Origin: Pseudomonadota bacterium
GTDB lineage: Bacteria > Pseudomonadota > Gammaproteobacteria > Steroidobacterales > GCA-2729495
DNA length: 64,000 nt
Direction of reading: 5' to 3'
Assembly: GCA_963204745.1 (NCBI GenBank)
Contig: CAUJHF010000063.1
Location: 49,287-113,286, forward strand
This document shows, one piece after another, positions 59,188-64,000 of the stretch; positions within the stretch are counted from its first letter, which is position 1; the number at the start of each line of letters is the position of its first letter. Made by a program: the position numbers and the translations under genes. Under the pieces are notes generated by a model that saw only the letters and a program-made list of their open reading frames with translations, did not search any database and was not told the origin of the DNA.

Positions 59188-61727
59188 ATGTTGAACGCAA
59201 CACGAGCCGTCGTGCCGTGCGCGGGCCTGACGGTGCTCGCACTGTTTGCTACTGGCGCCACCATAATGATGACCAGCCAGTCGGCCGCTGCCGATGATAT
59301 TATAGAGAGATCATCGTTACAGTCCGCCAGCGCGCAGAGTCGATCCAGGATGTTCCTGGTTCCGTGTCGGCTTTCTCATCCGCGCAAATCGAATCCCTGG
59401 GAATTCATCGGCCCGAAGATTTCATTGGCCAGACGCCGGGCGTATCGATCGTGAACTCTGCTGAAGCTGGCGACACCCAGGTAAATATCCGCGGCATCAA
59501 TGGCACTCGCGATGCCGAAACTAACTACGCGTTGATCATTGACGGCATCCTGATGACCAACCCGGCGGCCCTGAACCGGGAATACACCAACCTTCAGCAG
59601 ATCGAAGTGCTCAAAGGCCCGCAGGGCGCCGTTTACGGCCGCAACGCGGCTGCCGGTGCCATCATCATCACTACCAAGAAGCCGGCTAGTCAATGGGGTG
59701 GCGACATGAAGGCCACATTCGCCCAGGATTCAACGTATTCCCTGTCCGGTCTCGTGGGCGGCCCGGTCAGCGACACCCTGGGGGTGAGCGTCGGAGCCAA
59801 CTACCAGGATACCGACGGTTTTTATCGGAACCGGTACTACGGTGGCAGCGCTGACGTCGATTTTTTCAAGAGCTGGGATGTGAACGCACGGGCCGTGTGG
59901 GAGCCGTCGGCCAACCTGACCGTCGACAGCAAGCTGCGCGTCGGCTCGGTGGATGCCGCTTCGATCAGCTTCAACTCCGTGTTTCAGATTCCGAGTCTGG
60001 TGGGTTTCCTGGAGAACGCCTTTGGCTACACCCCTGCGGACGCAGCCTTCGCCTACGAGAATGTCAACGGCCACAAGTTTGAGTTTGACAACAACATCAA
60101 GCCCTACAATAACCAGGATTCGCTGGAAGCCTCAGTCAAGATCGACTATGACCTGAAATGGGCCGACCTCACGGCCTGGGGACTCTATAGCGACATCGAA
60201 AACGATCTCGGCGCCGACGGCACCAGTGGCGCCTTTGGTTTCTTCTTCAATGACCAGCAATGTATTGATACGACCGCAGAGCTCAATGCGGAGCAGTACA
60301 AGCTGATCCCGCCACAGATGATCGGCCCCACACCTGGCTTCTCGCTGTTCGGTGGCTACACCGCCACCGCCTGCGACGGCACGCAATACCAGAAGCGTGA
60401 TCAGAAGGATTACTCGCTGGAGGTCCGTCTCGCATCGAAAGGTGATCAGCGGCTCCGCTGGCTTACCGGCCTGTACTACCTGAATCTGGAGCGCGAGGTG
60501 GGCGTAAACACCGGCATCGATCGCGGCTACGGCGCGTTCAGGACGCTGTATACCGATGATCCGCGCAATCCCACGGAACAACTGGTCCATGACGAATTCA
60601 ACACGGATGTCTACGCCATTTTCGGCCAGTTGGCCTACGACATTACCGACACGATCGAGGCCTCGATCGCGCTGCGCTATGACCGCGAAGAGCGCGAGGT
60701 AACGAGCCGCGTGCCAGTGGACGCCACTGACCTGTATATCGATACCTGCGGCGACGGGCGCGCGAGTAACCCGATCAACCCCGGCCTCTGCGCGACGGGC
60801 AGTATCCCTGGCCAGAGCAAGACTTTTGACGAGTTGGAACCGAAGCTGTCGCTGACGTGGGACGTCACGGAGGCCACAACCCTGTATGGCACCGCTGGCG
60901 TCGGCTTCAAGAGCGGCGGCTTCAATAACCAGGGTTCCGCGGCCACGATTGACTTGTTCATCAATCAACCGTTGCTGGGACCTGGTGGGCCATTCGAGGG
61001 CAGCGGCTACGCTCCAGTCATCATCCAGGATTCCTACGACAAGGAAACCTCATGGGCCTACGAGATCGGATTGAAGTCGCGCGGCCTGGATGACCGACTG
61101 AGATACGAGTTGGCCGCTTATTATCTTGACGTCGACGACATGCAGTTCTTCGAGTTCTTTGTCGGCGGTTTCGGCCTGCTGCGCGTCGTGTCGAACATCG
61201 ACAGTGTCGACATCAAGGGTATCGAAGCCTCAGTCAGCCTCACCGCCACCGACTGGCTGACGCTGTATGCCGGCGCCAACATGAATGATACGGAGATCAA
61301 GAAGAACAGCGCGCGACCGGACAGCGTGGGTAACAAATCACCCTACACCCCGGATTACACCGCCAATGCCGGCGCGCAGGTTACCTATCCGCTGTCAGCC
61401 CGCTTTGACTTTGTTGGCAGTATCGACGTTTCCTGGGTGGGTCAAACCTGGTTCCATGTGATCCAGAACAATAGCCGGCCCACATACTTTTCACAGTTTT
61501 TCCCGCTGGATGCGGCCAACTACTCAATCACCCAACGCGATGCCTACTCGGTGGTCAATCTCCGGGCCGGTATTTCCGGCGACCGCTGGTCCCTGGTCGG
61601 CTTCATAAATAATGCACTCGATGAGGACTGGCTGCAGGAAGTCATCCCGGCTCCTGAATTCGGTGGTTCCTTCATTCATCCGGGCACAGAGCGTCGCCTT
61701 GGTGTGGAGGCTACGCTGAAGTTCTGA
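59188..61727 (+). CDS. TonB-dependent receptor, frameshifted near the signal peptide/TonB box (about 59305-59310)
   Basis: Frame 1: MLNATRAVVPCAGLTVLALFATGATIMMTSQSAAADDII; frame 3: EIIVTVRQRAESIQDVPGSVSAFSSAQIESLGIHRPEDFIGQTPGVSIVN...; plug NIRGINGTRDAETNYALIIDGILM, KGPQGAVYGRNAAAGAI; C-terminal RRLGVEATLKF. Long frame is 59364..61727. Confidence 0.88.
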
Positions 61728-61869: not shown

Positions 61870-61950
61870 GCAGTGATGGGTCCAGCTGCATCTGCCACCT
61901 GTTTTCGATTGCGATGATCCGATGCGTTCACTAATCGTCAAGCGCACGCC
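61870..61950 (+). repeat. Direct repeat copy B (arsM-like 3' remnant + dehalogenase 5' end)
   Basis: Matches 58955..59035; encodes AVMGPAASATC (cf. AVVAPAASGGC) then MRSLIVKRT (cf. MSSLVFKRT). Confidence 0.85.
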
Positions 61951-62836
61951 TGACAGGCGCTTTGATAATCTGCCTGAATACGCCTTCATGCCACGATATT
62001 GTCAGTTGCCGGACGCATGCTTCGGTCGTCTGCGCATGCACTATCTGGATGAAGGGCCGGTCGACGCGCCTGTGGTGTTGCTGATGCACGGGCAGGGCAC
62101 ATGGTCATACATGTACCGAAAGATGATCCCGCTGCTCGTCGCTGGAGGTTACCGGGTGGTGGCACCGGACTACATCGGCTTCGGCCGTTCCGACAAGCTG
62201 CCGGAAACGGAGGACTACAGCTTTCAGAAACACGTGGACTGGTTGGTGTGTTTTCTCGATATGCTGCAGATCCGGGATGCGACCGCCTATCTGTTCGATT
62301 GGGGTGGCTACTTCGGGCTGCGTATCGCGGCGCTGCGTCCGGAGTTTTTCGGCCGACTCGTGTTGAGCAATACCATGTTGCCGCAAGGGCAGGGCGGCAG
62401 CGGGCGGGAATGGTTTCTGAACTGGCGTGAGCAGCAGTTCGCACTGCCGAAGTTTCCGCAGGGCGAGATGGTCAATACAGGTGTCGTCGAGAAGCTCAGG
62501 CCCGAGATCATCGCTGCCTACGACGCGCCTTACCCGGACCAGAGCTTCAAGACCGGTCCACGACGCTGCCCCATGATCCTGCCGATCTGGCCCGACGATC
62601 CGGCCAGTATTGCCAATAGAGAAGCGTGGCAGAAGTTGGCGGGCTGGACGAAGCCGGTACTCACGCTCTTCAGTGCCAGTCTCGGTGCCGGCAGTCTGGG
62701 GCCGGATGCGATCAAGGCGCATATCCCCGGGGCCAGGGGGCAGCCGCATGCGCTGCTGGATCCGGCCGGGTTCTATATCGTTGAGGACCGGTATCGGGAG
62801 ATTGCGACGCGGATTGCCGAGTTCGCCGCCTATTAG
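61922..62836 (+). CDS. Haloalkane dehalogenase-like alpha/beta hydrolase, catalytic triad degenerate
   Basis: HGQGTWSYMYRKMIPLLVAGGYRVVAPDYIGFGRSDK, LFDWGGYFGLRIAALRPEFFGRLVLSNTMLP, PDDPASIANREAW, IPGARGQPHALLDPAGFYIVED. Confidence 0.9.
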   Translation: MRSLIVKRTPDRRFDNLPEYAFMPRYCQLPDACFGRLRMHYLDEGPVDAPVVLLMHGQGTWSYMYRKMIPLLVAGGYRVVAPDYIGFGRSDKLPETEDYSFQKHVDWLVCFLDMLQIRDATAYLFDWGGYFGLRIAALRPEFFGRLVLSNTMLPQGQGGSGREWFLNWREQQFALPKFPQGEMVNTGVVEKLRPEIIAAYDAPYPDQSFKTGPRRCPMILPIWPDDPASIANREAWQKLAGWTKPVLTLFSASLGAGSLGPDAIKAHIPGARGQPHALLDPAGFYIVEDRYREIATRIAEFAAY

Positions 62837-63888: not shown

Positions 63889-64000
63889 TTAGGTTGCATA
63901 TCCGAGGTTCGCGCGGTACTCCATTGGACTGCGTGAACCCAGTGAGATTTTGATCCGCTCTTCGTTGTACCAGCGAATGTACGAGTCAACCTCAGCGATG
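63889..64000 (-). mobile_element. IS3-family transposase, C-terminal fragment (continues past window end)
   Basis: Reverse strand IAEVDSYIRWYNEERIKISLGSRSPMEYRANLGYAT*; WYN.ERI....G..SP.EYR..LG pattern. Confidence 0.85.

Follow-up and report, generated by a model that had tools for sequence, protein, structure and literature searches.

The window, a 64,000-nucleotide stretch of gammaproteobacterial DNA, carries an intact gene for a homologue of the subfamily I haloalkane dehalogenases (HLD-I). The fold, whole-length homology, aspartate nucleophile and pair of halide-binding tryptophans of HLD-I are retained, but the histidine base is replaced by phenylalanine, the catalytic acid by leucine and Glu56 (DhlA numbering) by glutamine. 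This observation, first made for a single gene, was confirmed and reaches beyond the window gene to an entire clade. The best reading is a natural HaloTag-like active site, in which the SN2 half of the dehalogenase reaction may be competent while the hydrolytic half is not.

The active site of the window protein

The HLD-I-like alpha/beta hydrolase gene without catalytic histidine (positions 61922-62836, + strand) was identified from its ORF, the NCBIfam match, its PDB homologues and the match of its model to PDB structures. It starts with ATG and encodes 304 amino acids followed by a stop codon, with zero internal stops. The protein scored 341.5 bits against the NCBIfam model PRK00870 'haloalkane dehalogenase' (cut-off 265 bits). 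In a PDB search, its best solved relatives were HLD-I and HLD-II scored far lower; DmrA ranked first (4mj3, 305.7 bits), DpcA (6f9o), DccA (5esr), DppA (2xt0) and DhlA (1b6g) were also recovered, and the homology to solved HLD-I extended over the whole length (305 to 155 bits). An AlphaFold2 model built from seven sequences (mean pLDDT 70, pTM 0.79) had a good core, and Foldseek placed it nearest to DmrA, DpcA and DccA (E 1e-26 to 1e-30, TM 0.73-0.74). The model supports an alpha/beta hydrolase fold with a helical cap, the cap being of low confidence: the region of about residues 152-221 was mostly below pLDDT 50 and unreliable, and the model is too weak for pocket geometry.

Residue equivalence was read from alignments to DmrA, DpcA, DccA, DppA and DhlA. 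The nucleophile is kept as D126 in the motif FDWGG (codon 62297-62299, + strand, as for all codons below; DhlA D124), followed by the halide-binding W127 (62300-62302; DhlA W125). The second halide-binding tryptophan, W168 in the cap (62423-62425; DhlA W175), was located in a phmmer alignment. By contrast, the catalytic base position (DhlA H289) is occupied by F284 (62771-62773), the catalytic acid position (DhlA D260) by L254 (62681-62683) and the position of DhlA Glu56 by Q58 (62093-62095), within the motif HGQGTWS. The residue preceding the nucleophile, glutamine in HLD-I, is phenylalanine or leucine in the histidine-less clade. The preliminary description had reported an intact 304-residue ORF close to HLD-I with the FDWGG nucleophile in place, phenylalanine aligned with the catalytic histidine, the acid aspartate gone and HGEPTWS changed to HGQGTWS; each of these points was borne out for the window protein, and the retention of both halide-binding tryptophans is added here. 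As the base histidine and the acid aspartate, two defining residues of the catalytic pentad, are both replaced, classifying the window gene as a haloalkane dehalogenase would be inappropriate in catalytic terms. The EC 3.8.1.5 activity, hydrolytic dehalogenation, is predicted to be absent or very slow, and the protein may act like the first half of a haloalkane dehalogenase.

A histidine-less clade in one family

The window protein was used to search 60 related genomes and 40 genomes of the window's family. These family genomes harbour 33 HLD-I-like genes, and the histidine position is phenylalanine in every one of them, a truncated copy included. The remaining 32 are intact or nearly so (L062 is cut by a contig end) and were aligned; all match PRK00870 at E <= 1e-30. 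D126, W127, W168, F284 and Q58 are invariant in the 32. At E <= 1e-40 the family yielded no further HLD-I-like genes. The clade profile readily detects histidine-bearing HLD-I from elsewhere (DmrA, 364 bits), and canonical HLD-I consequently appears to be absent from the family. Outside the family, histidine was present in all 11 comparison sequences (four PDB HLD-I and seven homologues from other families of the order) and in ten of ten more PRK00870 members taken from 130 genomes of the phylum, that is, in 21/21 sampled homologues. The 11 compared HLD-I all carry glutamate at the Glu56 position; Q58 alone is not diagnostic, because the histidine-bearing homologue L116 also has HGQ.

The DNA pattern [FL]DWGG[YF]F, which takes in subclades A and B (see below) and not C, occurred in 22 of 396 genomes of the order, every one of them in the window's family, and no second true case was found among 399 genomes of the phylum; matches in L104 (a helicase region) and L105 were attributed to chance. 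Viral contigs contained no clade member, and the three distant HLD-like genes found there all have the histidine. Within the genomes sampled, the histidine-less clade is limited to one gammaproteobacterial family. Searches of the open PMC library returned no report of natural HLDs lacking the base histidine. A mirror image of the window case was observed in another gammaproteobacterial family, where a histidine-bearing PRK00870 member (L111 in genome G465, about 1519-2379, - strand) has asparagine at the nucleophile position (QNWGS).

Sequencing error at the histidine codon was considered and excluded, since identical substitutions recur in 32/32 intact homologues while the synonymous codons beneath them vary (F284, TTC in 21 and TTT in 11; Q58, CAG in 28 and CAA in 4; D126, GAC in 30 and GAT in 2).

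Probable single origin and purifying selection

A maximum-likelihood tree was computed from 42 sequences (31 histidine-less and 11 histidine-bearing rows); it has no outgroup, and the root was assumed to lie between the two sides. One branch (support 100/99) parts the 31 from the 11. The histidine-less sequences fall into three subclades, each a single group: A, which includes the window gene (16 rows, 99/95), B (11 rows, 100/100) and C (4 rows, 100/100). The tree is most simply read as one loss with duplication afterwards. Subclades A and B occur together in six genomes (G012, G019, G020, G021, G026 and G030) and B and C in two (G029 and G033), a coexistence that fits kept, distinct functions. 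Two near-identical subclade C copies in one genome (L025 and L063 in G024) suggest a recent duplication.

The acid position is hydrophobic throughout subclades A and B (F, L, I or M). In subclade C, the ungapped alignment from strand beta 7 gives D, D, D and E at this position, so that the acid may have outlived the histidine; this order is tentative because the automatic alignment puts gaps in the acid loop of subclade C.

Selection was estimated as pairwise dN/dS. The window gene gave 0.06-0.10 against an orthologue of 86-88% identity and other close pairs gave 0.08-0.19; one deeper pair reached 0.23 and several pairs were saturated, and the range of about 0.06-0.19 quoted here refers to close orthologues with usable dS. 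The replaced residues stay replaced under purifying selection. The preliminary description had listed a decaying gene among its options, that is, the remnant of a former dehalogenase. The distribution is indeed patchy (24 of the 40 family genomes; three of eight in the window's genus, one of these truncated), and the truncated copy (G007, L055 3196-3675, - strand) lacks ~135 N-terminal residues and with them the nucleophile, so that some lineages evidently tolerate loss of the gene. However, 32 intact ORFs, low dN/dS, identical substitutions of single origin and later diversification by duplication into three subfamilies reject decay for the clade, and a dN/dS near 1 was not seen for the window copy alone. 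We regard decay as scarcely credible.

Conserved residues around the pocket

Nine residues discussed here are invariant in the 32 aligned members (Q58, D126, W127, F131, W164, W168, R169, F284 and E288), as are H40 and H276. Q58, F131, W164, R169 and F284 depart from the usual residue of histidine-bearing HLD-I. Residues new and specific to the clade (F125, F131, W164, R169, P213 and R215) suggest an altered pocket, and the substrate therefore need not be a haloalkane.

These residues also bear on whether a relocated or unrecognised base might activate water and allow the protein to turn over as an active hydrolase, as the preliminary description had proposed under the name of a relocated triad. 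Purifying selection would be compatible with such an enzyme, and the invariant H40, H276 and E288 are available in principle; all three, however, are common to most or all histidine-bearing HLD-I, and relative to these no new invariant histidine or acid was found among the 32 aligned members. The alternative acid position known from rescue mutants, DhlA N148 after strand 6 (PMC6100074), is N, T or S in the clade, and neither D nor E. A relocated triad is disfavoured because the clade has gained no conserved histidine or acid, a conclusion that rests on conservation, and we consider a turning-over hydrolase improbable.

Genomic context

About 195 bp upstream of the window gene lies a TonB-dependent receptor gene, and the window gene is convergent with a gene of the DUF1838 family, an arrangement that is not conserved across the homologue loci. 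The receptor gene (59188-61727, + strand) is split over two frames, with the signal peptide in one (from 59188) and the TonB-box and plug (VTVRQRAESIQDVPGSVSAFSS...) in another, pointing to a frameshift or an assembly error near 59300. DUF1838 (PF08894) had nine matches in the window's 2.7 Mb genome (G000) and none in 14 control genomes: it is an expanded uncharacterised family in this genome. With nine matches present, adjacency is weak evidence, and DUF1838 was not retained as a functional partner. The contig ends within an integrase-core transposase (63892-64000, - strand; PF13333, E 7e-9), which probably explains the contig break.

Elsewhere in subclade A, the gene immediately upstream encodes a cytochrome c in the same orientation at 8 loci; it overlaps the HLD-like gene or is separated from it by a gap of <= 98 bp, and has two CXXCH motifs where complete. 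A membrane-anchored, mostly GTSLG-type serine hydrolase gene is found nearby on the same strand at 9 loci. L050 and L051 have the contiguous order hydrolase, cytochrome c', diheme cytochrome c and HLD-like gene. This arrangement suggests that hydrolase, cytochrome and HLD-like protein form a functional unit in some clade members, and names no substrate.

The shared neighbourhood of these other genomes would also suit a ligand-binding pseudoenzyme, in which fold and pocket accommodate a small-molecule ligand or a protein partner, catalysis has been lost and Asp126 serves as a structural residue or ligand contact. The combined loss of base, acid and Glu56 is in keeping with this, and the HG motif of the oxyanion loop is altered in part of subclade A (TPTQG, YPSQG, STQG). 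Against it, the nucleophile and both halide-binding tryptophans are kept exactly in 32/32 members and across three subfamilies, which exceeds a binder's needs. We therefore treat a pseudoenzyme as possible but somewhat doubtful.

The proposed half-reaction

In the first step of DhlA catalysis, Asp124 attacks the substrate, with the barrier lowered by Trp125, Trp175 and Phe172 (PMC8197811); the second step requires His289 as base (PMC6100074). In HaloTag7, the change of histidine to asparagine abolishes ester hydrolysis and the covalent adduct remains (PMC8388125). The explanation we favour, with about an even chance of being right, is that the window gene belongs to an old, single-origin HLD-I offshoot in which the second half-reaction is switched off. 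The residues of the SN2 half are kept: the Asp126 nucleophile, the Trp127/Trp168 halide cradle and, in the window's subclade, Phe165 (at the DhlA Phe172 position; valine in subclade B). The water-activating residues, histidine and its partner acid, have been replaced, as has Glu56, the loss having probably occurred once and been maintained thereafter. Asp126 would attack an electrophilic carbon in a natural substrate, giving an alkyl ester that no histidine-activated water would hydrolyse. The adduct might then persist, as in a scavenger or sensor, or be resolved by a water-independent route such as elimination or transfer. Two such paralogues are maintained in several genomes. This SN2-competent offshoot is supported by the residue mapping, the invariance of the active-site residues, the strongly supported clade, the low dN/dS, the coexisting subfamilies and the published work on DhlA and HaloTag7. 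On the other hand, DWGG could be kept for folding, the gene is patchy and the pocket looks changed.

The trap or sensor suggested in the preliminary description is viable, being consistent with SN2 machinery kept and hydrolytic machinery lost. Its strictest form is rather unlikely in our judgement: a natural clade of self-labelling suicide proteins in which Asp126 becomes permanently esterified by a reactive electrophile, such as a halogenated or strained metabolite, the protein acting as a one-shot scavenger or a covalent chemical sensor.

Like HaloTag and other histidine-mutant dehalogenases, the clade combines the aspartate nucleophile with the absence of a functional base (D126 with F284 in the window protein), and a stop at the alkyl ester is predicted. 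HaloTag, however, derives from the HLD-II enzyme DhaA by an engineered mutation (H272N in HaloTag7), while the clade is natural, belongs to subfamily I and has histidine, acid and glutamate all replaced and fixed. The HLD-III-like beta-lactone decarboxylase OleB offers a precedent, being a relative of the HLDs that serves mainly for something other than hydrolytic dehalogenation (PMC10503415). It differs in belonging to another subfamily; the HLD-III members described keep the full pentad (PMC10503415).

Implications for the family

Descriptions of the HLD subfamilies build on a complete catalytic pentad, and mining of the EnzymeMiner type drops candidates without essential residues (PMC13355053), so that the histidine-less clade would be discarded systematically. 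The NCBI family model meanwhile labels its members haloalkane dehalogenase. Contrary to this label, clade members may act as single-use chemical traps, as sensors or as enzymes of a non-hydrolytic kind. If Asp126 is reactive, the clade would be nature's HLD-I equivalent of HaloTag, arrested as a family at the covalent intermediate. If Asp126 is unreactive, it would be a clean, selected pseudoenzyme lineage that shows a hydrolase fold acquiring a new job.
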